A DNA stretch of 64,000 nucleotides from Hysterangium stoloniferum (lineage: Eukaryota > Basidiomycota > Agaricomycetes > Hysterangiales > Hysterangiaceae), in assembly GCA_015178975.1 (NCBI GenBank), contig WHVD01000045.1:434001-498000 (forward strand), given 5' to 3'. Position 1 is the first letter of the stretch. Every line of letters starts with the position of its first letter. The position numbers and the translations under genes were made by a program. The notes under the pieces were generated by a model. It searched no databases. It was not told the origin of the DNA and saw only the letters and a program-made list of their open reading frames with translations. Shown here piece after piece: positions 4,691 through 57,369 of the stretch.

Positions 4691-5821
4691 CACTTGAGCA
4701 AGATTCTACACAAGCGTCTCACCCTGCCAAAATTGGGAAGACTGATTCAAGAGTGTGTTGATTTAGCGAGGTAAGGGATACCTCAGCGTCGATCATTGAA
4801 CACACTTGAAATACTCATGTCTGAGTCGTAGACCTACATACCCACCTCAAATTCAGGGAAGAGCGACGAGAGTTTTACGGAGTGTCCCGGTATTTTCACC
4901 TCACATGCAGCGGAGTACCAAAGGGCTCATGCTATATTTGGCTTCGGCCTTCTATTTCTGCCCAGGTGTCTGTTTCCCAGATAGCGACACGTCAACTGGG
5001 ATTATGTCATCACTTTACAATGTTTTAGTCAAGTCACCGCTGCACACCACCTTGGACGAGGTTGCATCAACATTTGTTATACAAATCGCTGATTATCGTT
5101 ATCGTGGAAGCGATTTCCCACATGCATCAACTATTTGTAGAGGAGCTCACAGCGATCAGAGGTTACTTTGAATTCTGGTTACAAAGGTGCGTCGCAACTT
5201 CACAAGATGTCATCTTTCCCACCAAAAGCACTACAGAGAAAGTCACCGGCGAACAATTCCCCTATCTGCAGATCCTATACAGCTTCTCGTGTGTTGCATC
5301 CACCAAGATGCATGCTTTCGAGATTTTGCTGCAGCGGCATTGAGGGTTATATTGGACGACATAACCGTGCACATAGCGTCATTGACACTTCATCTTGATT
5401 TGCAGACATCAATTTTACTGTTGTGGAGTATTTACTCCTTGGAAACTTTCTTCAACGACAGCATGCTTCTCACCAATCACATCAATGAGCTGAATGTGGT
5501 TTCTTTGCTCATTGGGTCCATCGTAAGGTATGTTCACTATATTTTACCTTCCAGCACCCTCTTGCTTACATCCGCCTATGAACCTTTCCTACCAGTCTGA
5601 TTCTGATGCACCCAATTCCAGATTTGGCTCTCCTGTTGTCTGGCGAAGGAATAATCAAGTTGACGATGAAGCTGATAGCTGGATCTTCCGAACCCGAACC
5701 TGTGTGTACCACAGTGCGCAGCCTCAATACCATCCCCATCCTCGTTTCTCTTCTTCCACACTGTGACGTAATGCGCGGCTCGACCAATGACACATCCATC
5801 AGTTACAGGCTTGAGCATTTA
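4691..5821 (+). pseudogene. Family A gene copy A3, exons 2(end)-5
   Basis: Begins in the last third of exon 2 (SKILHKRLTLP), with intron 2 present (donor GTAAGG near 4,772, acceptor TCGTAG), exon 3 (PTYPPQIQGRATRVLRS, LASAFYFCPGV, VKSPLHTTLDEVASTF), exon 4 and most of exon 5. Exon 3 carries an internal deletion after IADYR that shifts the frame. The 5' end is cut by an LTR fragment and the 3' end by the first minisatellite unit at 5,822, within the codons for RLEHLD. It is a double-truncated pseudogene. Confidence 0.65.
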
Positions 5822-5954
5822 GACAAGCCTGGGAACCCTTGCTACACTGCGGGGCGGTCACTTCGTGACCTGCCCCACAACTTCGCTGTGGGCTCTGGCT
5901 TGTTGGGGGGCGAAGCCCCCCAAACCCCCCCATGTCAACAACTCCTAAGTGTTG
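5822..5954 (+). repeat. Minisatellite element R1: hairpin leader
   Basis: First of three copies (also 10,008-10,142 and 12,491-12,607). Starts CAAGCCTGGGAACCC and contains three nested-type hairpins in a row: GGTCACTTCGTGACC, CCACAACTTCGCTGTGG, and a 21-bp perfect stem-loop at 5,903-5,923 (TTGGGGGGC, loop GAA, GCCCCCCAA). It ends with a C-rich run and a short AACTC.TAAGT stretch just before the tandem array. No coding frame. Confidence 0.75.
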
Positions 5955-12490: not shown

Positions 12491-12607
12491 GCGATGAGCA
12501 TCTCCTACACAGCCCCACAACTTTGCTGCGGGTTCCAGCTTGTTGGGGGGCTTCGCCCCCCAAACCCCCCCGCGTCGACAACTTTTAAGTATTTCTGAGA
12601 CTCATTG
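12491..12607 (+). repeat. Minisatellite element R3: hairpin leader, hairpin inverted
   Basis: Third leader copy. The stem-loop at 12,543-12,563 has loop TTC instead of GAA, which makes the 21-bp hairpin the exact reverse complement of those in R1 and R2, while the flanking C-rich run and AACTTTTAAGTATTTCTGAGACTCATTGT keep the same direction. Confidence 0.75.
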
Positions 12608-17460: not shown

Positions 17461-17466
17461 AATAAT

Positions 17467-18089: not shown

Positions 18090-18356
18090 AATACTATATT
18101 ATGAGGTGAGAATTGTCAAAACTATTATTAGATGCTGTGTGAACCTTCAGCGGAAGGCGTAAGAAAGTAGCAAGGTAACCAAGTCCACTGGTTCCTAGAT
18201 AGTTCAAAGAAGGTGAGGGGATTTCGCTTCCGAAGGCAGGGATGACATGCTGTGAATGCTGTGTAAGCAAAGCCACAAGTCAATAGAACACTCCGACTGA
18301 CTGCGCCATAAAAGCCGGGCACCCCCTTCTAGTGCAAGTACGACTGCTACGCACAA
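18090..18356 (+). promoter_or_regulatory. Family A promoter region (copy A4)
   Basis: About 265 bases kept with little change upstream of the ATG in copies A4, A10, A11 and A12. A TATA-like CCATAAAAGCC lies about 45 bases before the start; the same box stands at the same place even in the diverged copy A13. The region separates A from module C on the other strand and may serve both directions. Confidence 0.55.
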
Positions 18357-18722
18357 ATGTCTGCTTTCGACGATATTTCCCTACCTGCACCGTCTTACAT
18401 CCGCCTATCAAACTTTCCCACCAGTCTGATTCTGATGCACACGAGTCCTAATTGGAATCTCCTGGAGTCTAGCGAAAGAATAATCGAGTTGACTATGAAG
18501 CTGATAGCTGGATCTTCCGAACCCGAACCTGCATGTACCACAGTGCGCAGCCTCGATACCATCCCCATCCTCGTTTTTCTTCTTCCACATTGTGACGTAA
18601 TGCGCGGCTCGACCAATGACGCATCCGTCAGTTACAGGCTTGAGCGTTTAGATTTCGCCACGCGTTCCTTCCTTTGCATGGTCGCCACACCTTCCCCTCG
18701 CGTGTCGGTAGAGTCTAATTAG
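18357..18722 (+). CDS. Copy A4: internally deleted family A gene, 121-codon chimeric frame
   Basis: The promoter and the first five codons of the A gene (MSAFD) are fused directly to the start of intron 4, and the frame continues without a stop through the old intron (ISLPAPSYIRLSNFP) into exon 5 in its normal frame, ending at the usual Ser-Asn-stop (18,720-18,722). Exons 1 (most), 2, 3 and 4 are deleted. The result is a short open gene with an apparently complete promoter. The start is chosen because MSAF is the start in copies A10-A12. It could make a 121-residue protein whose last two thirds equal the C-terminus of family A. Expression is unknown. Confidence 0.5.
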   Translation: MSAFDDISLPAPSYIRLSNFPTSLILMHTSPNWNLLESSERIIELTMKLIAGSSEPEPACTTVRSLDTIPILVFLLPHCDVMRGSTNDASVSYRLERLDFATRSFLCMVATPSPRVSVESN

Positions 18723-24640: not shown

Positions 24641-25180
24641 GACAGTTATAGAATTGCATTGGACTACTCATGAGGTCATCAAACCATTAATTTGGTGACA
24701 GATGCTTGTTTAACAGGTGCAAGTGGCATTCTCAGTCAAGGTGAAGATCTCTGCACTGCCACAGTAGTGTCATTCTGGTCGGGGAAGTTTAACTCAGCAC
24801 AACAGAACTACCCTGTCCATGAACAGGAGTTGTTGGCTATCGTGGAATCATTGAAACAATTCTGGTCACAACTGTTGGGGGTAAAATTTCGAATCTGTAC
24901 TGACCATAAAGGGATAGAGTATATACTTATGCAGAAGAACCTGTCTCCGAGGCAGACATGGTGGCTGGATCTTCTAAACGAATTCCACTTTGAGATTCAC
25001 TATATCCCTGGAAAGTCAAATACGTTTGCAGATGCTCTATCGAGAATCTATAGCGATGAGCCCTTGGGCACCATTAGGGCTGAATCTGAGTATGTAACTG
25101 ACATTCCAGGGATGGAAGAGGATACACAGGGGATGCACTACATTTCAGGGGTACCTGGCTTCAACAGTGTGTCGACATGA
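24641..25180 (+). pseudogene. Ty3/gypsy pol: RNase H domain
   Basis: Open frame 24,692-25,180. The RNase H1 motifs are in order: VTDACLTGASGIL (first Asp), SGKFNSAQQNYPVHEQELLA (Glu), ICTDHKGIEYI (Asp), then LSPRQTWWLDLL and IHYIPGKSNTFADALSR, the standard tether end. It is separated from its reverse transcriptase by the nested insertions and a deletion, so no full pol frame remains. Confidence 0.85.
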
Positions 25181-25700
25181 CTGTATACAGGGTCTGCAGC
25201 GGTAGCATTGGAGGAAGCACCAAGATGGTCAGGAAGGTTGGCTATTCAAATGTGTCCATCATATGCAACACTCACAGTGTTGGGAGCAAGGAGGAAAGGA
25301 CGTATTGAAGGATCAGGACAGATGACCGAAAAGACACACAAGGGTCATAGTAAGTCATCTGGATCGCCCCTGGAGCATCCATCACAAGGGGCGAGGGGCA
25401 AAACACCAAATACATCTGGTCATCAAGATTACGTTGAACGGCCTTCTTCACGAGTGACAATGGAGGGTGCATTACCTGAGTTGCCTTCAGATTTTCTACT
25501 AGCAGAAATCCCATTGGAGGGCCACTCAGGATTGGACATCCCAGAAGTCCTATGACGTCAGTATGGATCAGACATTTTCTTCTCTAGGATATGGGCAACG
25601 CCACAGGAGTATAAGGGCTTTACGTCATAGGACGGTTTTCTGTTCTTAAATCTGGAGGGTGTCAAACTACTTTGCATCCCTGATATTACCATTGGGAATC
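25181..25700 (+). other. Gypsy pol linker between RNase H and integrase
   Basis: The region should connect RNase H to the integrase zinc-binding domain. It holds a 115-codon frame (25,208-25,555) without a recognisable domain, and further broken frames. Probably degraded pol or a small insertion. Confidence 0.35.
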
Positions 25701-26990
25701 ACCGAGTGTGGAAAATTGTTATCTCGCATGCCCATTCTATCTTGGCACATCTAGGGGCAAGGAAAACCACCACATATTTGCAAACCAATGTGTGGTGGCC
25801 ATCATTAACCAAGGATGTCAAATTATTTTGCAAGTCATGCAGTGTGTGTGCCACTTCAAAATCTGAAACACAGAAACCGCAGGGACAACTTCGCTCAATG
25901 GAAGTGCCATCACAGCCATGGGAGGCAATTGGGATTGATTTTTTAGGACCCTTGCCAGTGTCCAGGAATCACTTTGGAGAGTTCGATAGCATCTGCATTA
26001 TTATTGACCATTTAACTTGCATGGTCCATTTGGTACCGGCATGCCAACTATACTGCTATTCAAATGGCTGAGGTGATCTTCAACCATGTTTACAAGTTGT
26101 ATGGGCTTCCCAACAAAATCATTAGCGATTGAGATTCGTTATTTACAAGTATCTTTTGGAGAGAGCTTCATCGGTTGATAGGAGTTGAATTGTGGATGTC
26201 TTCATCATACCACCCCCAAACAGATGGTGCTACTGAATGTGCAAATCAGACAATGACTCAAATGCTTAGGCAATGTGTAGCACCAAACCAGAAAGATTGG
26301 GTGTCAAAGCTGCCAGCTATTGTGTTTGCGATGAATAACACTACATCAGAAACAACTGGATTCTCACCATTTTTTTTGAATTATGGTCAGCTGCCACGGC
26401 CACTGCTCTGGGACAACAATATGAAGTATCCAGGTGTCCTTGAGTTTGCCACATGGATGAAGCTAGCAATCATGAATGTGCATGATGAGATACTGACAGC
26501 CAGGGTTAAGCAGACGTGGCAGGCAAATCAATACTGGAGGTCTGCTGCATTTAACGTCAATGATTGGGTTTATCTATCCATGAAGAACTTACACTTAACA
26601 AAAAATTGGGCACGTAAACTGCTGCCAAAATATATAGGGCCTTTTAGGATCAGCCGGGTATTGGAGCCAGGAGCGACATACCAGTTGGAACTGTCAAGGG
26701 AGCTCAAGCAACAGGGGATTAACCCAAGTTTTCATGCCTTGTTGCTTCATATACACATTCCAAATGACAATTGTCTGTTCCCAGGGAGGCAGTTGAGGCA
26801 GGTTCCTGGCTTTGGTAGTCGGCCTCGTGAGTGGGCAGTCGAGAAGATTCTTGCTCATTCGGGCAAGGGCATCAATGCTTTCTTTGAGGTTTTGTAGAAC
26901 ACCAGCGACACTACCTGGTTGCCATATCAAGATGTTCAGCACGTTCAGCCATTAAAGGCTTACCTGGAGGCATTAGGTGTTACAAGTGCT
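25701..26990 (+). pseudogene. Ty3/gypsy integrase with C-terminal chromodomain-like region
   Basis: First piece (25,706-26,071): the zinc-binding motif HAHSILAHLGARKT ... CKSCSVCATSK, then the catalytic core opening IGIDFLGPLP. A one-base frameshift near 26,045 is followed by AIQMAEVIFNHVYKLYG and the canonical ISDRD box, here with TGA in place of the Arg codon (about 26,128). The second piece (26,175-26,897) continues with SSSYHPQTDGATE (third acid), KLLPKYIGPFRI and then EWAVEKILAHSGKG...FFEVL, a chromodomain-like end interrupted by TAG where Trp is expected. At least three lesions make it inactive. Confidence 0.88.
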
Positions 26991-28089: not shown

Positions 28090-29560
28090 TAAGTCAATTC
28101 TCTCAAGGCAACGGTGCCTTGAGCAAGATTCTACACAAGTATCTCACCCTGCCAAGATTAGGAAGAGTAGTTCAAGAGAGTGTTGATTTAATGAGGTAGG
28201 GACACCTCAGTGTCAATCATTGGATACACTCGAAATACTTACGTCTGAATCGTAGACCTACATACCCGCCTCAAATTCGGAGAAGAGCGACGGAAGTTTT
28301 AAGGTGGTAACTGGTATTTTCACTCACACGCAGCGGGGTACCAAAGGGCTCATGCTACGTTTGGCTTCGGCCTTCTATCACTGCCCTGGTGTCTCGTGGT
28401 CAGCTAGAGAGGCGTCAACTGTGATTACGTGAATACACTCGAAATACTCATGTCTGAGTCGTAGACCTACATACCCGCATCAAATTCGGGGAAGAGCCAC
28501 AGACGTTTTATGGAGGTTCCGGATATTTTCAACTCACCTGCAGCGGAGCACCAAAGGGCTCATGCTATGTTTGGCTTGGGCCTTTTATTTCTGCCCCGGT
28601 GTCTATTGGCCAGCTGGATCAACTGCGATCACGTCATCACTTTACAACGTTTTAGTCAAGTCACCGCTGCACACCAACTTGGATGAGGTTACATCAACAT
28701 TTATCACACACATGACCCGTTATCTATCAGAATTTGATGATTCCTGGACCATTGCTGGCTTTGTGTATATCGTGGAAGCAATCTGCCACGTGCGTCAACT
28801 ATCTGTAGAGGAGCTCACGGCGATCAGAGGTTACTTCGAATTCTGGTTACAAGCGTGAGTCGCGACCTCACATTGTTTCATCTTTCCCACCAAAAACATA
28901 ACAGACAAAGTCACCGGCGACTAATTTCCCCATCTGAACATCCTATACGGCTTCTCGTGCGTTGCATCCACCATGATGCATGGTTTCGAAATTTTGCTGC
29001 AGCGGCATTGAGGGTTATATTGGACGACATAAATGTGCATACAGCCTCATTGACACTTTATCTTGATTTGGAGACATCAGATTCATTGTGGGGGAGTATT
29101 TGCTCCTTGGAAATCTTCTTCAACGACAGCACGCTTCTCACCGATCACATCAACGAGCTGAATGCCGTTTCTTTGTTCATTCGGCGCATCGTACGGTACG
29201 TTCACAATATTTTACCTACCTGCACCGTCTTACATCCACCTATGAAACTTTCCTACCAGTCTGGTTCTGATGCACACGAAGCCTAATTGGTACTTCCTGG
29301 CGTCTGGAGAAAGAATAATCGAGTTGACTCTGAAACTGATAGCTGGATCTTCCGAACCCGAATGCGCATGTACCACAGTACGCAGCCTCGATACTATCTC
29401 CATTCTCGTTTCTCTCCTTCCACATTGTGATGTAACCCGCGGCTCGACCAATGGCGAATCCATCGGTTACAGGCTCGAGTGTTTAGATCTGACCGCACGT
29501 TCCTTCCTTTGCGTGGTCGCCACACCGTCCACTCGTGTGTCGGTAGGATCTAATTAGACC
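28090..29560 (+). pseudogene. Family A gene copy A7, exons 2(end)-5 with internal duplication
   Basis: Exon 2 end (STQVSHPAK-type reading with SKILHK.LTLPRLG in the right frame), intron 2, then part of exon 3 duplicated: the intron 2/exon 3 start occurs at 28,225-28,430 and again at 28,431-28,560. The second copy runs on through a full exon 3 (LAWAFYFCPGV, VKSPLHTNLDEVTSTF), intron 3 with an ideal GTGAGT donor (near 28,857), exon 4 and intron 4 (GTACGT...CTACCAG, 64 nt) into an intact exon 5 ending at 29,557. This copy shows the exon 3-4 and 4-5 junctions most clearly. It lacks exon 1 and a promoter. Confidence 0.7.
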
Positions 29561-29564
29561 CCCA

Positions 29565-30540
29565 CATATCAGTGTTGGAGAAACATAGTTGCCCTGACAA
29601 AGGTCTTGCATCATCAACTGGACGCACTTCCCAATCATTTCTCTTCAATATATCTCAACCAAACCAGGAGAAGCACAATCCCATCCTCCTTTAATTAATC
29701 TACTTTCTAACCAGATTTCAAAAAATGTATTAAGATATCGTTTGAGCCAATGTACGAGCGCATATAGTCACTTATTGCCATCGCCACGAACTCTGCAGCT
29801 TGTACTCATACATGTGTTGAATACCGTTTTGGGCACTAGCCTTGTCCAGACTAACATCCCACTCATCAATGACACTTGTTTTAAATAAATATCAATGGAG
29901 GTCTGACAAATGCCTCCCCGTCGCCATTTCAATGCATGTCTCGTTCAGGCTTATCATACCTTCAGGCAAGTGGTCAATCAACAAGATCCATGATCTTAAA
30001 ACCGAGGGCCTTCCCACTGTGCGAGGTAATGCATTGGGAGACTTCTTTAAACTAATTATCTTCCATTGAAACCTTGACAAGAAAGCTGTCGTACGTCGAC
30101 AAAATATATAAGAGCGCATACAGTCACTTTTCACCATTGCCACGAGCTCTACAACATCTACACGTTAATTGATGGCATACCTGAGTTGAATACACTCAAT
30201 TCAAAAGCGAGGAGAGTCACTTGTAATGATCGCTGTGAGGACTCTAGACTGGTGTTGAATATATTCTGAGCACTACTCGCGGAAATCACATCACATATAC
30301 TAGCGACAATAATTTCAATCGAATACAACTAGGGCGTCTCAAAGAAGGCTGTCCCATCGTTATTCTCGTATCATTTGTTTGAGAGAACACGAAGCTGGGC
30401 CAAACCAATGGACAACACCATGATCAAGATACCCACACTTCGCTTTCACCTTGGATCAGAGAAAGGTAGCTCACGGTTATGTCAGGTGGAATCACTTATC
30501 AACTCAGAGCTGAAGAATGCCCAATATGACCTGCTGCATG
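29565..30540 (-). pseudogene. Module D relic
   Basis: Convergent with copy A7, same landmarks as the other D modules. Broken frames. Confidence 0.4.
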
Positions 30541-31860
30541 CAGAAGGCAAGCCACAAGAAATCTCATTTGTGTCGTGTTTCAATGTTTCAGTTGCTAGCG
30601 TCACACTACACACCACGACAGTTTATTTCACTCGCTATCCCGACATTTCCCCTACTGCTTCCATTTCAGTTGACTCGAGTTTAATCCACCCATTGTCATG
30701 TTTGAATTCATTCATTTCGAGTAGTAGCGAAACAATCATTTGATCCAATTTAATAGTAAAGAACTCTTCAACTAGATACGTCAGTCTCTTGAACGTTACT
30801 TGTCATCACCTGTTCCTTCCTATGCGTAACCGTGTGAGGCACTGTGTTGGGGGAATTCTTCAAACTAATTCTCTCCCATTGAAAACTTCAAAATACAGCT
30901 GCCATAGATCCAGCAAAGATGAGAGCGCATGCAGTCACCTTTCACCACCGCCGCGAACTCTTGCATGTTGCACGCGTTGTTGCAATACATGCATTGATTA
31001 CACTTGCGGGCACCCGTGGCTAAACCGACATCCAACTTATAAAATAAATGACAATCATTTCAACTAGAATGAGGATTTAAGAGTCGTATGAAGCTACATT
31101 ATTTGACACAATTTCAAAGCAGCCATGGTCACTTGTAACGATTTCTGCGAGGTTCTCTAGACTGGTGTTCACTATATTCCGAGGACTATACGCTGAAATA
31201 ACATCTCATATACTAGCGGGAACAACGTCAATCGAATACCACTAGGACTTATCAAAGAAGGTGGTCCCCCCGTTATTCTCGTGTCATTTGGGAGAACAGG
31301 AAGCCGGGCCAAACCAATGAACAACACCATGTTCAAGACACCGACATTTCTTCACATGTCGTGAGCTTTCACCTTGGATAAGAGAAAGGTAGCTCGTGGT
31401 CATCTCAGGTGGAATCGCAAATGAACTAAGAGCTGAAGATCACCCACGACCTGCCGCATGGGGGAGGCAATCCACGAAAAATCACATTTACTGTGTTTCA
31501 ATGTTTCACTTGCTAGCGTCATACTACGCACCACGAATTAATTGTACTTACTATCCCGACATTTCCTTTACCCTTGCATTTATGCTGGCTGGGGTTCATT
31601 CCATCAATTGTCATGTTCGACTCATTGCATTTCGAGTAGTAGCGAAACCGCCACTTGATTCAATATAATATTGAAAGGGGCATAGACTACATCCGTGGGC
31701 CTCTTGTGCGGTAGTTGTCATCACCTGTTCCTTCCTATGGTCTTTCACTGGTACGTTGGTTGCGTCGACGATTCGAATTACGTCTCCGTTTTCCGGAATA
31801 TGACGCCTGGAAGATAACTATCAGGCTTCCAGACCGTGTAATGAAACACAATGTAGGTAC
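30541..31860 (-). pseudogene. Modules B and D, duplicated and rearranged
   Basis: A short B piece (30,541-30,830), then D-like pieces (30,830-31,480), then a second B (31,480-31,860). The doubled order shows a local duplication of the backbone unit. No intact frame. Confidence 0.35.
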
Positions 31861-31864: not shown

Positions 31865-32495
31865 TGTTCGTACGAACTCCGATGGACTGGGCATGGCGAT
31901 GGCATCGAGGCTGCGCACTATAGTACACCCTGATTGTGGCTCGGAAGATTCAACTATCAGCGCCGGAGTAACCACCGTTATTATCTCGGCAGAATGCAAG
32001 AGAGGGTAATCTGGACTCGCTTCCATCAGAATCAGACCTGTACGATAGTTTCATAGGTGTATGTAAGATGGTGCTGTAAGGTAAAATAATGTGAACATAC
32101 CTTACGATGGACCTAATGAGCGAAGACACCACATTCAGCTGGTAGATGTGTTGCAATTAAGGGCCTATGTGTGTTCAATACTTGGGGGGCTATCTATGAT
32201 TTCCTCAGTAGAGAATCAATTCCATTCGGCGATCCAGGTAATAATACAGCTTGCTGTATGTAGGTATGACGTGATACGCGGTTATATATACAATTTGTCA
32301 ATCCAAATTCTGACGGACACGCAAAAATCAAAGTATTTCCAAGTCAGACCCTTATGTACCTCAATAAAATCTACAATGAGATCTTTGGTCTCACATCACT
32401 CTTTGTCTTCCTCAGACGTTGCACAAAATTCAAGCCGATTGATATGGCAAGGGTGAAGGAAGAAATCACGTTGCTTACCATTAACCCGACTTTAC
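31865..32495 (-). pseudogene. A-prime fragment and module C
   Basis: 31,865-32,090 is the A-prime exon 5 piece; 32,090-32,495 is module C, nearly identical to 17,467-17,890. Module C is cut near 32,495 and fused to a plus-strand D module, so no A promoter follows. Confidence 0.4.
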
Positions 32496-35900: not shown

Positions 35901-36714
35901 ATGCCCATTTGTCCCTCACCTTTATGCAATGTTACTTGTGGATCTAACAGCAGTTTATCAGTTCATATGGCAAAGTCACCCTCTTGTCAAGCATGGTTAG
36001 AATCTTAGGACTATAAAGAGATTAATCTTGACAATTCTTCATCTTTTCCACTTCCAAATAATCTTCCTGGGTTTTATGAAGAGCCTGAGGAAGATAGTTC
36101 AGACAGTGATGATAATTATGGTGGTTGGGAGATTGATGTTTCCATGAATAACATGGATACTGGTAATTCCATGGATAGTATGGATGTTGACTGCTCAGTG
36201 GGGAATGCTACTCCTCAATGCATTCCTAATCCTGCTTGATCAACCACTCAGGACCATACAAATACTTCTGACTTTCCAAAGTGCTATTACAAATTTCCAT
36301 TTTCAAATGTTGCAAAGAAGCTTCAGAAAGCTGACACTCCCTATGAGAAAACTAAACAAAATGAGGATCCAAATGCCCCATTTTTTCCATTTGCAACAGA
36401 AGAGGAGTGGCAATTAGCTAATTGGCTAGGGAGTAGTGGACTTCCCAATACTCAGATTGATAAGTTTCTCAATTTACCTTGGGTGACACAATCCTTTTGA
36501 GGCATATAGTTGTGCTTACTCATTTCATACTCATACAGGTCAATGCTCCTGGGCATGTACCATCATTCAAGACCAGTAGTGATCTTATAAATCACATTGA
36601 GGCCTTGCCTGGCTTGCCACCTTGGAATGCAAGGTGGATTACTTTGCCAGAGGCACCTAAAGATTCACAGCTGCTATTGTATAGAGATCCTGTGGAATGC
36701 TTAAAGTGGCTTGA

Positions 36715-37534
36715 TGTTACGACCGGACAATCCCGCCGGACTCTGGGCACTAACCCGTACGCCCCCACGCACTACAAGCACCAATCGTCTGTTTATAGGA
36801 TTTCCCGCCCAGACTCCGTTACGTCAAGACTCGTTACGTTCGACCTCATTACGACACATATCAGTTACCAGACTTCCCCTGGACTCCATCTCTGTCTATG
36901 TCCATCTTTGTCCCACGCATCAGTCACTGGTCCCCGCTTAGAATCCCATCACCGCTCTAATCGAGCCCCGTTCCCGTTTTAGTCAAATGACCTGTCACGA
37001 TTTAGGACTCCGCTCCCACTCCATTTCCCGTTATGGGTTATGCTTTGTCACGATTCGGACTCTGCTCCGTTCCGTCCCGTTCCTAACACCAAACTTGGTG
37101 TTTACATTTCCCGTTTTATGTTTTGCTCATTTCGTCTCATTATTACTGGATTCGGTATGTCATGCATTCCACGGTCTATATAAACTGGCAGATGTTGTAC
37201 ATACAATCCAGTCAGAAAATTAGCTTAGATTCCCCCCAGTAATCTAATATATTTTCCGCTCTAAAAACCCTACTCTCATCAGACTGCTCACACTAGTCAG
37301 AGCCCACAGGCTCTGGTGCATCTCTCTCTCTCGACCATCTCGACTCACGACTCATGACCTACGACCTACGACCTACGACCCATGAACCCTGCCCGGACTC
37401 CCCGGGATTCCCGTCCATCCATTTGAAATTGGACAACACAATCTAGCGAGGGCGCAGCCTATAAGCTGAAGCCAAGTCCTACCGGATATCCCGCGGGTTT
37501 CTCTGGAGACCCGGCCTGTGTGTGTATCCTAACA
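36715..37534 (+). mobile_element. Solo LTR inside the Plavaka transposase, target duplication CTTGA
   Basis: Starts TGTTACGACCGG, ends ATCCTAACA. CTTGA lies at 36,710-36,714 and 37,535-37,539. TATA-like CTATATAAAC at about 37,180. Its 3' part (GAGGGCGCAGCCTATAAGCTGAAGCC) matches the other LTRs at 4,344-4,690 and 8,220-8,998. Removing it plus one duplication restores the transposase reading frame without loss of a base. Confidence 0.92.
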
Positions 37535-38551
37535 CTTGAAGCCAATCCAGAATTGGGAGAAAAAGATTATGTGCCATATGAGGAGTATGTGGATGGAGAA
37601 GGAACAATTCACTGTTATAGTGAAATTGCAAGTGGTGAAGCATGGAATGAATTACAGAGAAAATTTCCCAATCTTACAATCAATCCCTTTATCATGACAA
37701 CAGATAGTACTCATCTGACACAGTTGACTGGTGATAAGAAGGTCAAGCCTCTTCTTATTTCCTCAGCACATATTCACCAAAATGTTCATGCAAAGCCAAG
37801 TAAATGGGCTTTCTTACCTCTTGCCTTTATTCCTGAGGGGAAATTCTCCCACTTGGAATTTCAAAATCCCACACAGGCCAGTCTTTTACCAGGCATCTTG
37901 TCAAGGCGCCTGTACCACATGTGCATGAGAGAAGTCATGAAACCAGTGATTCCATTTACAGTGACACCTATAGAAATGGTGGACAGTGAAGGATATATTC
38001 GCAAGGAAATACTAGCACCATTATTCTATATTGCTGATACACCAGAGCAGGCATTGGTTGCAGGTCTTGCACCCAATAATTGTATACCCTGTTTGGCTGG
38101 GACACACTTACTTGATGCTGACCATGTGCAGATCCCACGCACTGGCCAGTCAATATTGGACACAATTAAAGGAATTCTCCAGGAATTTCCAGATGCAGAT
38201 ACTTGGAAATTTGCAATGGTAGCCAAAGAACGAAAATTGAATGTTGTAGAAGAACCATGGTGGATTGACTTTCCCTCTTTGGATATCTGCAAGGCTGTTT
38301 GTCCAGATGTTCTTCATGGATTACACAAGGCATTTAAAGACCACTGTGTGGCATGGCACATAAACCTTGTGGGAAAATTAGAGCTTGATGCTCATTTTCG
38401 ACGCTTGCCTAAGTTTCCAGGTTTTCGTCATTTACTGCAGGGATTTCAAAGATATCACAGTGGACAGGAAAGGAACATCGAGACCTACACTGAAGAGACA
38501 CTTTCCCAATTAATGGACTTCAAGGTAAGTCTTAACTTTTCAAAGTCATTA

Positions 38552-39236
38552 CAGCTGTTCCGGATATCTATGGCGGGGTTTCAAAATTCAAAAAAGTCCC
38601 GCTTTGGAATTCACAGACAAATTTTGTGATATCTCCCGAACGGAGTGGAGTTAAGACACAGGATTTTAGTATATATATTTGATAGTGTAGAGGTATCTAT
38701 ATATATATATATTTGGTCTTATGACACCTTATTTAATATTTAGCTCAATATCACTGCAATTGTTCTACATCATTCAATTCTTGTCATGTCTAGGTTCTGA
38801 GAAATAATAATATATATTTATCCTAAATATTCCTTGAGATTTGAGGCTTAATACTGCCTTCTGAACCTGGTGACTAGGCACATTTCAAGCTAGCATATAG
38901 TGAGTAGTATGCTGTGTTCACCAAGGCACATTAAACCCCACAGCTCATAAAATATTTATATACAATACTTAACATCAATTCCCCAAGGCTAGAGGCAAAT
39001 CTGATAATAATTGAATGGTGGAGAGCCATTGAAGTGATATTGAGCTGAATATTAAATAAGGTGTCATAAGACCAAATATATACATATATAGATACCTCTA
39101 CACTATCAAATATACATCCTAAAATCCTGTGTCTTAACTCCACCCCGTTCGGGAGATATCACAAAATTTGTCTGTGAATTCCAAAGTGGGACTTTTTTGA
39201 ATTTTGAAACCCCGCCATAGATATCTGGAACAGCTG
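38552..39236. mobile_element. MITE with ~205-bp inverted repeats in a transposase intron
   Basis: The left arm CAGCTGTTCCGGATATCTATGG... and right arm (reverse complement) match for about 205 bases with few differences, through TTTGGTCTTATGACACCTTATTTAATATT. Flanked by TA on both sides (38,550-38,551 and 39,237-39,238), the Tc1/mariner target duplication. Total 685 bp, no coding frame. It sits between the donor GTAAGT (38,525) and the acceptor TTACAG (39,261). Confidence 0.88.
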
Positions 39237-41590: not shown

Positions 41591-43448
41591 CTAATTAGAC
41601 CCCACCGACACACGAGCGGTAGGTCTGGCGACGACGCAAAGGAAGGAACGCGCGGTGAAATCTAAACACCCAAGCCAGTAACCAATGAGTTGGTCATTGG
41701 CCGAGCCGCGGATTATGTCACAATGTGTGAGGAGAGAAACAAGCATGGGGATGGTATCGAGGCTGCGCACTGTGGTACACGCAGGTTCGGGTTCGGAAGA
41801 TCCAGCTATCAGCTTCATAGTCAACTTGATTATTCTTTCGCCAGACACCAGGAGATACCAATTAGGACTCGTGTGCGTCAGAATCAGACTGGTAGGAAAG
41901 TTTCATAGGCGGATGTAAGACGGTGCAGGTAGGTAAAAGATTGTGAGCGTACGGTACGATGGGCCCAATGAGCGAAGAAACGACATTCAGCTTGTTGATA
42001 TGATCGGTGAAAAGCGTGCTGTCGTTGAAGAACGTTTGCAAGGAGGAAATACTCCAATACAGTAAATTTGATGTCTCCAAATCAAGATGAAGTGTCAATG
42101 ACGCTATGTGCAGGTTTATGTCGTCCAATATAACCCTCAATGCCGCAGCACCAAAATCTCGAAACGATGCATCTTGGTGGATGCAACACACGAGAATCCG
42201 TATAGGATCTGCAGATAGGGGAATTGGTCGCCGGTGACCTTCTCTGTAATGCTTTTGGTGGGAAAGATGACATCTTGTGAAGTCGCGACGCACACTTGTA
42301 ACCAGAATTCAAAGTAACCTCTGATCGCCGTGAGCTCCTCTACAAATAGTTGACGCACGTGCGAAATCGCTTCCACGATAAACTCAAGGCCCCAAATGGG
42401 TGAGAGATCACGATAACCGGCGATTTGTATAACAAATGTTGATGCAACCTCATCCAAGTTGGTGTGCAGCGGTGACTTGACTAAAACGTTGTAAAGTGAT
42501 GATGTAATCGCAGTTGACACGTCTCTAGCTGGCCAATAGGCACCGGGACACCACTTAAAGGCCGAAGCCAAAGATAGCATAAGTTGGGAATATGGCCTTT
42601 GTTACTCTGCTGCATGGGAAATGAAGAGATCTGGAAATCATCTAAAATCCTCCTCGCTCTTCTCCGAATTTGAGGCGGGTATGTAGGTCTACAACTCAGA
42701 CATAAGTATTTCGAGTATCCAATGATTGATGCTGAGGTATCCCTACCTCATCAAATCAACGCTCTCTTGAACTGGTCTTCCCAGTCTTGACAGGGTGAGA
42801 CGCTTGTGTACAATCTTGCTCAAGGCACCATTGTCTTGAGACAATTGACTCATTTGCCCGTATATTGTCAGCTTTGCCATCAGTGAAGCTTTCTTTGCAC
42901 TCTGGAGGACTTTCATCCCAACCCTTTCCAAACCGACTCCACAATAATGCCCGGGGCCAATTTCAATACTTGAAGATGTCACAAGACTCGGTGAGATCAT
43001 TCCCCAGTCCTCGCCATGACTATGATACGCGCTGAGGTTGGATGTCGCATTGATGAATATCTGAACAACAGTGGGTGGGTCATGGCAGGTCGTTTCTCCT
43101 TGACACTGAAATGTGCCGCATATAACACAGATCACATGGAAATAGCATTTTACTTTACTCACCCACTCGTCAACCCAGACCTCTATATGGTTTGCAGATA
43201 GTTGTATGTGCTGCTCATCATCGGGAGCCCGATAACACAAATCATGGCCGGGTTCGTTACAAACCCATCGTTTTCGGAGCTTCTCCCTAAACATGTGTCT
43301 CATCCCCGTCTTAATCATCTGCTCCCGTTGCTCTGAACTCAATACCCCTGGGAAAACTATGGGTGGTAGGTTCATAACGCCATCAAGGTAGGGCTGACCC
43401 TTTGCCCCATCGTGATTCCCCAAGAGTTGTCTCGTTGAAAGCAGACAT
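41591..43448 (-). pseudogene. Family A gene copy A10, full length with two 1-nt indels
   Basis: Exons on minus: 43,448-43,163; 43,105-42,747; 42,688-42,294; 42,243-41,953; 41,888-41,591. Introns of 57, 58, 50 and 64 nt with the same sites as copy A11. Exon 1 has one extra base in the ACTCTTGGGG run near 43,420, and exon 3 lacks one base in the CATATTCCCAAC run near 42,590; both break the frame. Exon 2 is three bases shorter and stays in frame. The promoter (43,449-43,690) is intact with CCATAAAAGCC. Apart from the two indels the coding sequence is open. Confidence 0.8.
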
Positions 43449-46292: not shown

Positions 46293-48135
46293 CTAATTAG
46301 GCTCCACCGACACACGAGTGGCAGGTGTGGCGACCACACAAAGGAAGGAACGTGTGATCAAATCTAAACGCTGCAGTGCGTAACTGATGGAGTGGTCATT
46401 GCTCGAGCTGCGCATGATGTCACAATGCGGAAGAAGAGAAACGAGCGTGGCGATGGCATCCAGGCTGCGTATTGTGGTACATGCAGATTCGGGCTCGGAA
46501 GATCCAGCTATCAGCTTCCGAGCCAACTCGATTATTCCTTTGCCAGACCACAGGAGAGGCCGGTCTGGAATCGGGTGCGTCAGAATCAGACTGGTAGGAA
46601 AGGTTCATAGGCGGATGTAAGACGGTGCAGGTAGGGAAAATATGGTGAACGTACCGGACGATGGGCCCAATGAGCGAAGAAACGACATTCAGTTTGTTGA
46701 TATGATCGGTGAGAAGCGTGCTGTCGTTGAAGAAGGTGTGCAAGGAGTCAATACTCCAATACAGTAAACGCGATTCCTCTGAATGAATATGATGTGTCAA
46801 TGACGCTATATGCACGTTTATGTCGTCCAATATAACCCTCAATGCCGCTGCAGCAAAATCTCGAAACGATGCATCTTGGTGGATGCAACACACGAGAAGC
46901 CATATAGGATCTACAGATGGGAAAAGTAGTCGCTTGTGACTTTGTCTGTTATGCTTTTGGTGGGAAAGATGAAGTGATGTGAGGTTGCGACGCACTGTTG
47001 TAACCAGAATTCAATGTAACCTCTGATCGCCGTGAGCTCCTCTACAAATAGTTGACGCACGTGGGAAATCGCTTCCACGATACCCGCAAGGCCCCAAATG
47101 GGTGAGAGATCACGATAACCGGCGATTTGTATAACAAATGTTGATGCAACCTCATCCAAGGTGGTGTGCAGCGGTGACTTGACTAAAACATTGTAAAGTG
47201 ATGACGTAATCACAGTTGACGCGTCTCTAGCTGGGAAATAGACACCGGGGCAGAAATAGAAGGCCGAAGCCAAACATAGCATGAGCCCTTTGGTACTCCG
47301 CTGCATGTGAGGTGAAAATTCCGGGACACTCCATAAAACTCTCATCGCTGTTCCCCGAATTTGAGGCGGGTATGTAGGTCTACGACTCAGACATGAGTGT
47401 GTTCAATGATCGACGCTGAGGTATTCCTTACCTCGCTAAATCAATAATGTCTTGAATTAGTATTCCCAATCTTGGCAGGGTGAGACGCTTGTGTAGAATC
47501 TTGCTAAAGACACCGTTGTCTTGAGACAATTGACTCATTATTTGCCCGTATATTGTCAGCTTTGCCATTAGCGTAGCTTTCCTTGCACTGTGGAGGACTT
47601 TCATCCCAACCCTTTCCAAACCGACTCCACAGTAATACCCGGGGCTAATTCCAATACTTGAAGATGTCACAAGACTCCGTGAGATCATTCCCCAGTCATC
47701 GGCATGACAATGATACGGGCTGAGGTTGGATGTCGTATTGGTGGATATCTGAACAACAGTGGGTGGGTCATGGTAGGTCGTTTCCCCTTGACACTGAAAT
47801 ATGCTGCATATGACACAGATCACCTAGAAATAGCATTTTACTTTACTCACCAACTCGCCAACCCAGACGTCTATATGGCTTGCAGATAGTGCTATGTGCT
47901 GCTCGTCATCAGGGGTGCGATAACATAAATCATGGCCGGGTTCGTTACAAACCCATCGTTCTCGGAGCTTCTCCCTGAATATCTCTCTCATCCCCGTCTT
48001 AATGATCTGCTCCCGTTGCTCTGAACTCAATACACCTGGGGAAACCAAGGGGGGTAGCTCCTCAACGCCTTCAAGGTGGGTCTGAACCGTTGCCTCATCG
48101 TGATTCCCCAGAGCTGTCTCGTCGAAAGCAGACAT
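46293..48135 (-). CDS. Family A gene copy A11: intact five-exon gene, 539 residues, function unknown
   Basis: Exons on minus: 48,135-47,851; 47,793-47,432; 47,379-46,996; 46,945-46,655; 46,590-46,293 (285+362+384+291+298 = 1,620 nt, 540 codons with TAG). Introns: 57 nt (GTGAGT...TTTCAG), 52 nt (GTAAGG...CGTAG), 50 nt (GTGCGT...ATAACAG), 64 nt (GTACGT...CTACCAG). Every phase fits and no exon has a stop; intron 1 contains one if retained. Residues 61-73 hold RWVCNEPGHDLCY, a small Cys/His motif. The rest is rich in helices (VKSPLHTTLDEVASTF, LRVILDDINVHIASL, LTDHINKLNVVSSLIGPIV), giving an alpha-solenoid-like look. No signal peptide or membrane segment. Start chosen at MSAF, 45 bases after the TATA-like box. 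I do not recognise the family. Confidence 0.82.
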
Positions 48136-48420: not shown

Positions 48421-48960
48421 GAGTTGAAAGCAAAACAGCTTTTCTGATATTCGAGAAGTGACATTGCCAGAAATAATACAAAATGCGGTCCAGAGCTATG
48501 CTCACCTGCTGCGGCTTTCAAGTTGGCATAGCGTCAACCTCGAACTTTTTCTGGAAGGACTGCGTGCTGCCTGTTTAATTTTATCAACCTTTCAATGAGG
48601 AGAAACCCAGGGCAAGTGATAGTCTAGTCGGGTTAATGGTAAGCAACGTGATTTCTTCCTTCACCCTTGCCATATCAATCGGCTTGAGTTTTGTGCAACG
48701 TCTGAGCAAGACGAAGAGAGACGTGACACCAAATTTCTCAATGTAGATTTTATTAAGGTACGTAAGGGTCTGGCCTGGAAATATTTTGATTTTGGCATGA
48801 CAAATTGTACATATAATCGCGCATCACGTCATATTTACATACAGCAAGCTGTATTTTTACCTGGATGGCCGAATGGAATTGATTCTTTGCTCAGGGCATC
48901 ATATATAGGCCCCCGAGGATTGAACACACGTAGGCCCTTAATTGCAACACATCTACCAGC
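48421..48960 (+). pseudogene. Module C, best copy
   Basis: Plus-strand frame reading SFSDIREVTLPEIIQNAV then QSYAHLLRLSSWHSVNLELF, LEGLRAACLILSTFQ, then TGA; a strong donor GTAAGC follows at 48,639 and the next exon-like piece (FCATSEQDEERRDTKFLN) begins near 48,690. The sequence is helical and leucine-rich like family A. The TGA after STFQ (48,595) and further stops suggest decay. Head-to-head with A11. Confidence 0.5.
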
Positions 48961-49250
48961 TGAATGTGGTGTCTTCGTCCATCGTAAGGTAGTTCACATT
49001 ATTTTACCTTGTAGCACCATCTTACATCCACCTATGAAACTGTCGTACAGGTCTGATTCTGATGGAAGCGAGTCCAAATTACCCTCTCTTGCATTCTGCC
49101 GAGATAATAATGGTGGTTACTCCGGCGCTGATAGCTGAATCTTCCGAGCCACAATCTGGGTGTACTATAGTGCGCAGCCTCGATACCATCGCCATGCCCA
49201 GTCCATCGGAGTTCGTACGAACAAATTGTGCCTATAACTCATAATCAGTC
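48961..49250 (+). pseudogene. A-prime fragment
   Basis: Family A exon 4 end, intron 4 and exon 5 start in the subtype with SDSDGSES and CRDNNGGYSGADS, in the same orientation as module C. Ends near GTCCATCGGAGTTCG. Constant part of the amplified unit. Confidence 0.5.
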
Positions 49251-49840
49251 ATAATTAAGTATAACTAGTCATATTATTGTCTATCCCACTGAGTGAACTG
49301 TTCGCACCATGCTCACACCTTTCATCAATCGCTGTGGCCATTCAATTCGATGATGGCAAGGTAGATTAAGAATTGTGAAGCACTGTGAGTTCTTGCCAAT
49401 GTTGAAATTGACATCTGGCGGTGTCTCCTTGGCTAGCACCATTCCGGCGACCAACTCACCAACAGTGGGTTGGATGAAACGGTCTGGAAGCCTCATAGTT
49501 ATCTTCTATACGTTATATTCCGGAAAGCGGAGACGTAATTCGAATCGTCGACGCACCAACACACCAGTGAAAGGTGTGGCGACTACGCATAGGAAGGAAC
49601 AGGTGGCGACAACTAACGTGCAAGAGGCCCACGGATCTAGTCGATGCACTCTTTAATATTAGATTGAACCAAGTGGCTGTTTCGCGACTACTCGAAATGA
49701 AATCAGTCGAGCGTGACATTTGGCGGAATGTACCCCAGTTAGCAGAAATGCAAGGAGTAAAGAAAATGTCGGGATAGTGAGTAAAATAAATTCGTGGTGT
49801 GTGGCATGACGCTAACAACTGAAACATTGAAAGACAATAA
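49251..49840 (+). pseudogene. Module B, best copy
   Basis: Plus strand: MKHCEFLPMLKLTSGG..., MKRSGSLIVIFYTLYSGKRR, then an intron-like stretch with ACAACTAACGTGCAAG and the frame RPTDLVDALFNIRLNQVAV, LLEMKSVERDIWRNVPQL, EMQGVKKMSG-stop (49,775). The last piece is charged and helical. The equivalent in the 53.8-54.4 kb copy keeps most of these residues. Confidence 0.45.
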
Positions 49841-50785: not shown

Positions 50786-52639
50786 CTAATTAGACTCTAC
50801 CGACACGCGAGGGGAAGGTGTGGCGACCATGCAAAGGAAGGAACGCGTGGCGAAATCTAAACGCTCAAGCCTGTAACTGATGGATGCGTTATTGGTCGAG
50901 CCGCGCATTACGTCACAATGTGGAAGAAGAGAAACGAGGATGGGGATGGTATCGAGGCTGTGCACTGTGGTACATGCAGGTTCGGGTGCGGAAGATCCAG
51001 CTATCAGCTTCATAGTCAACTCGATTATTATTTCGCTAGACTCCAGGAGATACCGATTAGGACTCGTGTGCATCAGAATCAGACTGGTGGAAAAGTTTGA
51101 TAGGCGGATGTAAGACGGTGCAGGTAGGTAAAATATTGTGACCGTACCGTACGATGGGCCCAATGAACGAAGAAACCACATTCAGCTCGTTGATGTGATC
51201 GGTGAGAAGCGTGCTGTCGCTGAAGAAAGTTTGCAAGGAGCGTATACTCTCCCACAATGAATATGGTGTCTCCAAATCAAGACGAAGTGTCAATGACGCT
51301 GTGTGCACGTTTATGTCGTCCAATATAACCCTCAATGCCGCTACAGCAAAATCTCGAAACCATGTATCTTGATGGATGCAACACAAGAGAAGCCGTATAG
51401 ATAGGAGAATTAGTAGCCGGTGACGTTGTCTGTTATGCTTTGGGTGGGAAAGATGAAATGATGCAAGGTCGTGACGCACGGTTGTAACCAGAATTCAAAG
51501 TAACCTCTGATCGCCGTGAGCTCCTCTACAGATAGTTGACGAACGCGGCAGATCGTTTCCACGATATACCAAAGGCCGAAAATTCTTGAGAGATCAAGAT
51601 GACCGGCGATTTGTATGATAAATGTTGATGCAACCTCACCACAGTTGGTGTGCAGCGGTGACTTGACTAAAACGTTGTAAAGTAATGACGTAATCGCAGT
51701 TGACGCATTTCTAGCTGGCGAATGGACACCGGGGCAGAAATAGAAGGCCGAAGGCAAACATAGAATAAGTTGGGAAGTATAGCCTTTGCTACTCTGCTGC
51801 ATGCGAAATGAAGACACATAGTAATCACTCAAAATCCTGCTCGCTCTGCTCCGAATTTGAGGCGGGTATGTAGGTCTACGATTCAGACGTAAGTATTTCG
51901 AGTGTATCCAATGATTGACACTGAGGTATCCCTACCTCATTAAATCAACACTCTCTTGAATTAGTGTTCCCAATCTTGGCAGGGTGAGACGCTTGTGTAG
52001 AATCTTGTTCAAGGCACGGTTGTCGCGAGACAATTGACTCATTATTTACCCGGATAATGTTAGCTTTGCCATCAGCAAAGCTTTCTTTGCACTGTGAAGG
52101 ATTTTCATTCCAACCCTTTCCAAACCGACTCCACAGTAATACCCGGGGCCAATTTCAATACTTGAAGATGTCACAAGACTCCGTGAGATCATTCCCCAGT
52201 CCTCGCCATGACTATGATACGCGCTGAGGTTGGATGTCGTATTGGTGGATATCTGAACAACAGTGGGTGGGTCATGGCAGGTCGCTTCTCCTTGACACTG
52301 AAATGTGCCGCATGTGACAACGATCGCATGGAAATGGCATTATACTTTACTCACCCACTCGTCAACCCAGACCTCAATATGGCTTGCAGATAGTGCTATG
52401 TGCTGCTCGTCATCAGGACCCCGATCACATAAATCATGGCCGGGTTCGTTACAAACCCATCGTTCTCGAAGTTTCTCCATGAATATCTCTGTCATCACCG
52501 TCTTAATGATCTGGTCCCGTTGCTCTGAACTCAATACACCAGGGGAAACTAAGGGTGGTAGCTCCTCAACGCCTTCAAGGCAGGTCTGAACCGTTGCTTC
52601 ATCGTGATTCCCCAGAGTTGTCTCGTTGAAAGCAGACAT
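50786..52639 (-). pseudogene. Family A gene copy A12: full length, one in-frame stop
   Basis: Exons on minus: 52,639-52,355; 52,297-51,936; 51,875-51,480; 51,429-51,148; 51,083-50,786 (285+362+396+282+298 = 1,623 nt). Introns 57, 60, 50 and 64 nt. All phases are kept. The only defect I see is TAA at 52,046-52,048 in exon 2, where copy A11 has CAA (Gln, in YGQIMSQLS). The intron 4 donor is GTACGG instead of GTACGT. Exon 3 has 12 bases more and exon 4 nine fewer than A11, both multiples of three, as expected for a gene that diverged under coding constraint before the stop arose. Confidence 0.8.
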
Positions 52640-52910: not shown

Positions 52911-53480
52911 CGTTATTGAGCGTCAGAGTTTAAAGCAAAATGGCGTTTCTGATATTCGCGAAGTGGCATTGCCATGAATAATACAAATGCAGTCCGGAGC
53001 TATGCTTACCCGCTGCGGCTTTCAAGTTGGCATAGTGTCAACCTGGAACTTTTTCTTGACAGAGTGCGCGCTGCCTGTTGAAGTTTATCAACCTTTCAAG
53101 GAGGATAAAACCAGGGCAAGTGATAGTCGAGTCGAGTTACTGGAAAGCAAGGTGATTTTTTCCTTCACCCTTGCCATATCAATTAGCTTAAATTTTGTGC
53201 AACGTCTGAGCAAGACAAAGAGTGACATACGACCAAAGTTCTCATTGTAAATTTTATTGAGGTATATGAGGGTCTGGCTTTGAAATATTGTGATTTTTGC
53301 GTGTCCATCAGAATTTGGATTGGCAAATTGTACATATAATCGCGTAGCACGTCATACTTACATACAGCAAGCTGTATTATTACCTGGATGGCCGAATGGA
53401 ATTGATTCTTTGCTCAGGGACTCATAGATAGCCTCCCAAGTATTGAGCACACGTAGACCCTTAATTGCAACACATCTACC
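52911..53480 (+). pseudogene. Module C
   Basis: Second copy in the tandem array. The frame MLTRCGFQVGIVSTWNFFL (52,987-53,250) is the +1 reading of the better copy at 48.5 kb, caused by a missing base; the GTAAGC donor is changed to GCAAGG. Degraded. Confidence 0.4.
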
Positions 53481-54420
53481 AGCTCAATGTTGTTCGCTCA
53501 TGGGTTCATTTTAAGGTACGTTCACATTGTTTTACCTGATAGCACCGTCTTACCTCCACCTATGGAACTGTCGTATAAGTCTGATTCTGATGGAAGCGAG
53601 TCCAAATTATCCGCTCTTGCATTCTGCCAAGATAATAATGGTTACTCTGGCGCTGATAGCTGGATCTTCCGAGTCAGAATCTGCGTCTACCATATTGCGC
53701 AGCCTCGATACCATCCCCATGCTCGCTTCTCTTCTTCCATATTGTGACATAATGCGCGGCTCGAGAAATGACCAATCCATCAGTAAGTCCATCAGAGTTC
53801 GTACGACCAAATTGTGCCTATAATTCATAATCAGTTATACTTGAGTACAACTAGTCTTATTATTAATATTGTCTATCCTGCTGAGTGGACTCTTTGCACC
53901 AAGCTCACACTTTTCATCAATTGCTGTCGCCATTCGATTCGACGATGGCAAGGTAGATTAAGGATCGTGAAGCACTGTTGAGTCTTTGTTAATGGTGAAA
54001 TTGACATCTGGCGGTGTCTCCTTGGCTAGCACCCCTCCGGCGACCAACCTCACCAACATTGTGTTTGATGAAACGGTCTGGACGCCTCATAGTTATCTTC
54101 CAGGCGTTATATTCCGGAAAGCAGAGATGTAATTCGAATCGTCGACGCACTAACACACCAGTGAAAGGTGTGATGACTACGCAAAGGAACAGGTGACGAC
54201 AACTAACGTGCAAGAGGCCCACGGATCTAGTCGGTGCCTTCTTTAATATTACATTGGATCAAGTTTCGCTACTACTCGAAATGAAATTAGTCGAACATGA
54301 TAATTGGTGGAATGAACCACAGTCAGCATAAATGCAAGGAGTAAAGGAAATGTCGGGATAGCGAGTAAAATAAATTCGTGGTGTGTAGTGTGACGCTAGC
54401 AACTGAAACATTGAAACGCA
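53481..54420 (+). pseudogene. A-prime fragment and module B
   Basis: 53,490-53,820 is the A-prime piece (SYKSDSDGSES). 53,820-54,420 is module B with a TAA inside the MKLVEHD...MQGVKEMSG end. No module F or E follows. Confidence 0.4.
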
Positions 54421-55497: not shown

Positions 55498-57369
55498 CTA
55501 ATTAGACCCCACCGACACACGGGTGGTAGGTGTGGCGACCACGCAAAGGAAAGAACGCGCGTGAAATCTAAACGCTCAAGCCAGTAACTGATGGATTGGT
55601 CATTGGTCGAGTCGCGGATTGTCACAATATGTAAGGAGAGAAATGAGCATGGGGATGGGATCGAGGCTGCGCACTGTGGTACACGCAGGTTCGGGTTCGG
55701 AAGATCCGGTTATCAGCTTCATAGTCAATTCGATTATTCTTTCGCCAGACGCCAGGAGATCCCAATTAGGACCCGTGTGCGTCAGAATCAGACTGGTAGG
55801 AAAGTTTGATAGGCGGGTGTAAGACGGTGCAGGTAGGTAAAATCTTGTGAACGTACCGTACGATGGGCCCAATGAGCGAAGAAACCACATTCAGCTCGTT
55901 GATGTGATCGGTGAGAAGCGTGCTGTCGCTGAAGAAAGTTTGCAAGGAGTAAATACTCCCCCACAATAAATGTGGTGTCTCCAAATCAAGATGAAGTGTC
56001 AATGAGGTTATATGCACGTTTATGTCGTCCAATACAACCCTCAATGCCGCTGCAGCAAAATCTCGAAACCATGTATCTTGGTGGATGCAACACACGAGAA
56101 GCCGTATAAGGTGTTCAGATAAGGAAATTAGTCGCCAGTGACTTTGTCTGTTATGCTTTTGGTGGGAGAGATGAAATGATGTGAGGTCGCGACGCACTCT
56201 TGTAACCAAAATTCAAAGTAACCTCTGATCACCGTGAGCTCCTCTACAGATAGTTGACGCACGCGGCAGATCGCTTTCACGATATACACAAGGCCCCTAA
56301 TGGTCCAGGAATCATGAAATTCTGATAGATAACGGGCGATATGCATGATAAATGTTGATGCAACCTCTTCAAAGTTGGTGTGCAGGGGTGACTTGACTAA
56401 AACGTTATAAAGTAACGACGTAATAGCAGTTGCCGCGTCTCTTTCTGACCAAAGGACGCCGGGACACCATCTAAAGGCTGAAGCCAAAGATAGCATAATT
56501 TGGGAAATATGGCCTTTGCTACTCTGCTGCATGTGAAATGAAGAGACCTGGAAATAATTTAACACATTGCTCGCTCTTCTCCGAATTTGAGGCGGGTATG
56601 TAGGTCTATGACTCAGATATAAGTATTTCGAGTGTATCCAATGGCTGACGCTGAGGTATCCCTACCTCATTAAATCAACAGTCTCTTGAACTAGTCTTCC
56701 CAATATTGGCAGGGTGAGATGCTTGTGTAGAATCTTGCTCAAGGCACCGTTGTCTTGAGACAATTGACTCATTATTTTCCCGTATATTGTCAGCTTTGCG
56801 ATCAGCGAAGCTTTCTTTGCACTGTGAAGGACTTTGATCCCAACCCTTTCCAAACCGACTCCACAGTAATACCCGGAGCCAATTTCAATACTTGAAGATG
56901 TCACAAGACCCTGTGAGATCATTCCCCAGTCCTCGGAATGACTATGATACGGGCTGAGGTTGGATGTCGTATTGGTGGATATCTGAACAAAAGTGGGTGG
57001 GTCATGGTAGGTCGTTTCTCCTTGACACTGAAATGTGCCGCATGTGACACAGATCACATGAATATAGCATTTTACTTTACTCACCCACTCGTCAACCCAG
57101 ACCTCTATATGGCTTGCAGAAAGTTGTATGTGCTGTTCGTCATCAGGGGGCCGATAACATAGATCATGGTCGGGTTCGTTACAAACCCATCGTTCTCGGA
57201 GCTTCTCCCTGAATATCTCTCTCATCCCCGTCTTAATGATCTGGTCCCGTTGCTCTGAGCTCAATATACCGGGGGAAACTAAGGGTGGCAGCTCCTCGAT
57301 GTCTTCAAAGCAGCTCCCAGTCGTTGCCGAATTGTGACACCCCAGAGTCGTCTCGTTGGAAGTAGACAT
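55498..57369 (-). pseudogene. Family A gene copy A13: diverged N-terminus, 2-nt deletion in exon 5
   Basis: Exons on minus: 57,369-57,085; 57,027-56,666; 56,605-56,198; 56,147-55,857; 55,792 to stop. Introns 57, 60, 50 and 64 nt. Exons 1-4 are open and in phase. Exon 5 lacks two bases near 55,619 (GGATTGTCAC for GGATTATGTCAC), so the reading stops at 55,600 instead of the family stop at 55,498. The product would keep about 510 residues with a changed end, so residual function is possible. The N-terminus (MSTSNETTLGCHNSATTG) and upstream region differ more from the others than the rest of the gene. Intron 1 has no stop and could be retained. Confidence 0.75.

Follow-up and report, generated by a model that had tools for sequence, protein, structure and literature searches.

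A spliced five-exon gene in Hysterangium stoloniferum is probably an intact member of a large, undescribed and unevenly constrained gene family

The DNA analysed here, called the window, is a stretch of 64,000 nucleotides from one contig (C388) of Hysterangium stoloniferum (Basidiomycota, Phallomycetidae, Hysterangiales). On its minus strand, at positions 46293-48135, the spliced model that we rebuilt from the sequence runs from ATG to TAG in five exons and encodes 539 amino acids plus the stop, that is 540 codons (Table 1). Its four introns, of 57, 52, 50 and 64 nt, have phases 0, 2, 2 and 2 and GT-AG borders in 4/4 cases. The five exon lengths, the matching phases and the codon number claimed in the first-pass annotation were reproduced to the base, and the common borders that it had claimed for three neighbouring copies hold as well: the same four introns recur there, with lengths otherwise shifted by multiples of three. 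Identical borders of the window gene were recovered by a purpose-written spliced protein-to-DNA aligner to which they had not been supplied; since this program takes only GT/GC donors and AG acceptors, the GT-AG rule is partly built into its result. It returned a clean four-intron model in 34 of 42 loci, and the identity of donor and acceptor hexamers between copies was 0.80-0.95, compared to 0.52-0.71 within introns. In addition, two NCBI models, P0012 and P0009, are identical, letter for letter, to the spliced five-exon models of loci L039 and L047, so that the NCBI annotation independently backs the same introns. The internal intron motif CTRAY was present in only 7 of 136 introns, and this was counted against the gene reading.

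Table 1. Exons of the window gene and other pieces of its family within the window.
Feature	Positions	Strand	Remarks
Exon 1	47851..48135	-	285 nt, phase 0 at both ends; carries the ATG and the N-terminal Cys/His module
Exon 2	47432..47793	-	362 nt
Exon 3	46996..47379	-	384 nt; holds hypervariable residues 226-266 and 301-318
Exon 4	46655..46945	-	291 nt; holds hypervariable residues 345-365
Exon 5	46293..46590	-	298 nt including the TAG stop
Tandem copy	41591..43448	-	same introns; 2 frameshifts
Tandem copy	50786..52639	-	same introns; 1 in-frame stop
Tandem copy	55498..57369	-	same introns; 2 frameshifts in exon 5
Truncated copy	4697..5824	+	runs from the end of exon 2 through exon 5; 1 frameshift
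Truncated copy	28459..29557	+	exons 3-5; open up to a TAG
Internal-deletion copy	18333..18722	+	first codons of exon 1 joined to intron 4 and exon 5
Inverted relic	48948..49345	+	exons 4-5; lies ~0.8 kb upstream from the window-gene ATG
Inverted relic	53471..53796	+	exons 4-5; placed likewise relative to the 50786-52639 copy

The starts of the window gene and its three full-length tandem neighbours (41591, 46293, 50786 and 55498) are spaced by 4702, 4493 and 4712 bases. Mobile-element sequence also occurs in the window: positions 24674-26894 contain Ty3/Gypsy-type polyprotein pieces, with RNase H, integrase zinc-binding and Tf2-type SH3 domains, and positions 36464-38626 contain pieces of a Plavaka-type transposase.

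A search with exon 5 of the window gene produced 1338 first-look candidates, 150 of which were scored; all 150 matched, the weakest with an E of 6e-30, and they were distributed over 24 contigs. With exon 5 of subfamily B, the 150 scored of 1518 candidates likewise all matched, and by hand count 98 of these 150 listed places lie on the 1.614-Mb contig C522, between 10 kb and 1.281 Mb. The two lists hold at least 299 distinct places, one place, on C527, being common to both; this number includes some relics, and a few equal-scoring places, for example on C63, C316 and C547, may stem from duplicated or allelic contigs. The three places C63:91312, C316:6370 and C547:343743 have the same exon-5 score and may represent duplicates of very recent origin or redundancy between contigs. 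Using P0001 as query, two subfamilies were found in addition to A and B, namely C on C539, C420 and C198, and D on C162, C528, C362, C174, C237 and C84. The four introns and their phases are alike in A, B and D copies, and the one modelled copy of D has five exons with 0 stops and 0 frameshifts. In subfamily C, exon 1, in phase 0 at both ends, has been duplicated, and every copy has a GTGAGT intron of its own; at locus L049, exons of 288, 306, 165, 195, 309 and 306 nt stand ahead of the usual 362-nt exon 2 and are mostly separated by 57-nt GTGAGT introns. On C162, C528, C362 and C174 subfamily D recurs every ~10-11 kb, which suggests a longer tandem unit; rDNA was considered as the carrier of the ~10-kb repeats on C162 and was rejected, as L053 and L054 gave no Rfam match at gathering thresholds.

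Twenty-one annotated relatives were found, 16 by the first search and five more by later ones, all of them hypothetical proteins of Hysterangium stoloniferum named BU17DRAFT_* (P0001-P0021). Among these, P0010 belongs to subfamily A, where it was placed by the length of its contig, P0008, P0009, P0012 and P0013 to B, and P0001-P0006 to C. The window copy is absent among the annotated proteins found, and none of the 16 proteins of the first search is on a contig as long as C388, C367 or C24, which are rich in A copies; this could be explained by repeat masking. The family had been described as unrecognised at first pass, which is right in that it has no Pfam match and no description, but GenBank contains 21 of its members, entered as hypothetical proteins. 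Among the papers listed by searches of open-licence PMC none describes the family, and the excerpted text of PMC7550596 names H. stoloniferum once.

Among 42 distinct loci obtained by the first searches, which were ranked by similarity, 14/34 A and 6/8 B copies were intact when modelled with the A query. In L038, which was counted as intact, intron 3 is shifted, and in L068 intron 2. With the B query 5/8 B copies were intact, L043 being frameshifted, and the model of L043 from the A query uses a non-canonical intron 3. For a further 18 A and 16 B copies, taken from the exon-5 lists regardless of intactness, the intact ones were 5/18 and 1/16, and the broken ones 13/18 and 15/16, respectively. 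The window gene had been presented as hidden among pseudogenes; this is true locally, where all three tandem neighbours are lesioned, but other parts of the genome contain many intact copies.

Across all copies, dN/dS was 0.65 in subfamily A (52 copies) and 0.67 in subfamily B (24 copies), and the median of the pairwise values was 0.76 for A (60 of 91 pairs sampled), 0.77 for B (15 pairs) and 0.54 when A was compared with B (20 pairs sampled). The window gene gave 0.82-1.10 against its six closest intact copies, which means that constraint is established for the family, not for the window copy itself. When only the 19 intact copies of A were compared, dN (0.158) matched the intron divergence (0.161), with a dS of 0.216, so that much of the protein is weakly constrained and the constraint is concentrated in parts. 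Residues 44-95, which include the Cys/His module, had a dN/dS of 0.30 in A (bootstrap interval 0.20-0.42) and 0.43 in B (0.28-0.70), and residues 151-225 and 267-300 were likewise low in both subfamilies. Residue by residue, the module C63-x4-H68-x2-C71-x8-H80 is retained in 46/47, 47/47, 48/48 and 49/49 A copies, and the equivalent residues of B in 19/20, 19/21, 21/21 and 21/21. When as many random substitutions were simulated as separate each copy from its closest intact relative, 3.2-7.6 stops per copy were expected under neutrality for the 20 copies taken as intact, and the probability of finding no stop was at most 0.045 for each of them, these copies having been selected as intact. All copies together contained 15 stops in 52 A and 12 in 24 B, numbers that the aligner can lower by dodging some stops via gaps or introns. 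The proposal of a real gene under coding constraint was corroborated by stops far rarer than the neutral expectation, by borders kept at ~50% identity and by dN/dS values below 1, lowest in the module. A dN/dS near 1 in all branches, named beforehand as evidence against it, was not observed overall; values of this kind occurred in the youngest comparisons of the window gene.

Three segments of the protein, residues 226-266, 301-318 and 345-365, showed a nonsynonymous rate about twice that of the rest in A, and the same was true in B, which was tested afterwards and where these segments again evolve fastest. For the three segments in this order, local dN/dS was 0.73, 1.25 and 1.02 over all A copies and 1.09, 0.95 and 0.71 over all B copies; when segment dN was set against gene-wide dS, subfamily A gave 1.45, 1.30 and 1.38, and subfamily B gave 1.15, 1.10 and 1.02. 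In the 19 intact A copies only 301-318 exceeded 1 (2.34, interval 1.59-3.71), the segments having been chosen from the same alignment after viewing the data. With all copies included, the three segments are near a dN/dS of 1 and not clearly above it, which is compatible with relaxed as well as diversifying selection; these values do not establish clear positive selection.

The retention of introns in the copies points to copying at the DNA level. Upstream homology between loci ends at -733 to -772 in 11/41 loci and exactly at -541 in 6/41, and the common flanks of close relatives run far past these edges. Fixed element ends were looked for: the edges recur at ~-750 and -541, and by eye the alignment showed no terminal repeats at the recurrent upstream edge. 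In the tree, which included three of the four full in-window copies, none of these was sister to another, and their nearest relatives were on C24, C367 and C11; this suggests that whole stretches have been duplicated between regions, and allelic contigs may contribute. Contig labels changed 26 times on the tree, compared to a mean of 32.6 after shuffling (minimum 28 of 500), indicating only modest local clustering. In the gene conversion test 8 of 1176 pairs passed the 95% threshold (100 permutations), 6 of them across contigs; with so few pairs, wide gene conversion was dismissed and its extent is taken as modest.

Pfam-A gave 0 families at E<=10 for the window protein and nothing above the curated cut-off for 15 relatives (best E 0.017, in one member), and no significant match was found in the PDB (best E 0.04). 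Sequence profiles detected no NACHT, NB-ARC or HET domain in the window protein or the 15 relatives, and profile comparison with hhalign, made with ARM/HEAT-type helical repeat proteins in view, revealed no internal repeats, apart from residue ranges common to the compared segments. Among the candidates scored in the protein searches there was no relative outside Hysterangium stoloniferum; each search scored the 8000 candidates with the most shared words, needed shared 5-residue words and was limited in length, so that distant relatives may exist in other organisms. The highest 19-residue hydropathy mean was 1.54 and no membrane segment is therefore expected; the N-terminus, MSAFDETALGNHDEATVQTH, is polar by inspection. 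From the lack of Pfam and PDB matches and of internal repeats, together with the low hydropathy, we infer a product of ~540-570 amino acids that is probably soluble and intracellular, with variable segments and an N-terminal C-x4-H-x2-C-x8-H module that could perhaps bind metal.

How far do these data fit explanations other than a conserved gene family? Chance open frames joined at GT/AG sites, with no gene behind them, can be given practically no weight: apart from the GT/GC...AG borders forced by the aligner nothing speaks for them, and they are contradicted by the same model having been annotated independently by NCBI at two loci and by borders common to subfamilies that are ~50% identical. 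Also very improbable is a repeat that is dead, or drifts neutrally, in its entirety, with the frame of the window gene open through youth alone. Such a repeat would account for the dN/dS near 1 of recent pairs and for the overall dN matching the intron divergence, but not for the absence of stops from 20 intact copies in which about 3-7.6 per copy were expected, nor for the bootstrap intervals below 1 of the Cys/His module and other blocks in both subfamilies, nor for the A-B median of 0.54.

A further explanation is that the gene is selfish, or a passenger, in a repeat that amplifies locally, either a transposon-like unit or a meiotic driver, in which frames would be kept since active copies spread and not through host need. 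The hundreds of copies, many of them broken, fit this idea, as do the units with co-duplicated flanks and upstream homology that stops at recurrent points, the Gypsy and Plavaka pieces close by and the dN/dS near 1 in the youngest comparisons. However, by eye neither shared terminal repeats nor target-site duplications were seen at the recurrent upstream edge, the protein is without a transposase-like domain, the flanks of close relatives are shared far beyond the recurrent edges, and contigs specific to subfamilies suit segmental duplication better than free transposition. On balance we regard a selfish origin as possible, though unlikely.

The reading that we prefer, with a probability of roughly 0.85, is that the window copy is an intact member of a real intron-bearing gene family that is so far known from Hysterangium stoloniferum alone, an ectomycorrhizal false truffle. 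That this is a real gene of an undescribed family, constrained but unevenly, is supported by the sequence comparisons. Copies would be multiplied by tandem and segmental duplication at the DNA level, with introns kept and ~0.5-0.75 kb of upstream sequence travelling along with each copy; many would then decay, and the surviving lineages would stay under coding constraint, as in birth-and-death evolution. The predicted protein has a conserved body broken by the three hypervariable segments, behind an invariant N-terminal Cys/His module. The data show the structure of the gene, its copy number, the common introns, the pattern of conservation and the hypervariable segments; solubility, metal binding, expression and function are inferred. 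As to function, our first guess, and a tentative one, is an intracellular recognition family, in which the constant parts may provide a common activity and the variable segments may touch changing partners, with allorecognition, parasites or genome invaders as candidates; a selfish or passenger role is the second guess. A more speculative and rather doubtful extension would be that this symbiotic fungus has an intracellular diversity system not described before, which serves allorecognition or genome-invader defence and is made up of hundreds of intron-bearing copies in contig-scale clusters, largely unannotated, each with a constant module and three variable segments.

Giant lineage-specific gene families are a known kind, and what appears unusual in the Hysterangium family is its size, its contig-scale clustering and its near-absence from annotation. 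NLR/HET-type allorecognition genes form large, fast-evolving fungal recognition families; the Hysterangium family resembles them in its many copies, birth-and-death evolution and combination of constant and variable parts, but differs from them in that no NACHT, NB-ARC, HET or repeat domain was detected. The wtf families of Schizosaccharomyces are meiotic drivers which, like the present family, are lineage-restricted, fast-evolving and multi-copy, with many pseudogenes; unlike wtf, the Hysterangium family has no transmembrane stretch predicted by hydropathy and is several times larger. If the family is expressed, H. stoloniferum gives hundreds of loci, few of them visible in standard annotation, to a protein without known relative, and would offer a test case both for the origin of giant orphan families by local duplication, exon-1 duplication and decay and for what basidiomycetes diversify intracellularly. 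If it is selfish, the family would be a large case of a repeat that codes for protein and has kept its introns without belonging to any recognised transposon.

Other open frames of the window were also considered. The upstream frame at 17461-17904, taken as a candidate hidden second gene, was rejected as coding because of frameshifts or stops at most matching loci; in addition, its first 23 residues have a match in family exon 4, on the antisense strand. This frame and a similar one at 32085-32453 are built from sequence found upstream of family genes; the initial part runs antisense to exon 4, and most matches elsewhere are broken. A downstream piece at 30333-30740 was set aside as mostly broken. 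Dense tandem and satellite repeats, with units of 17-19 nt and ~65 nt and a strong GC and AT skew, occupy positions 4345-15490, and the long open frames in this region are translations of the repeats.
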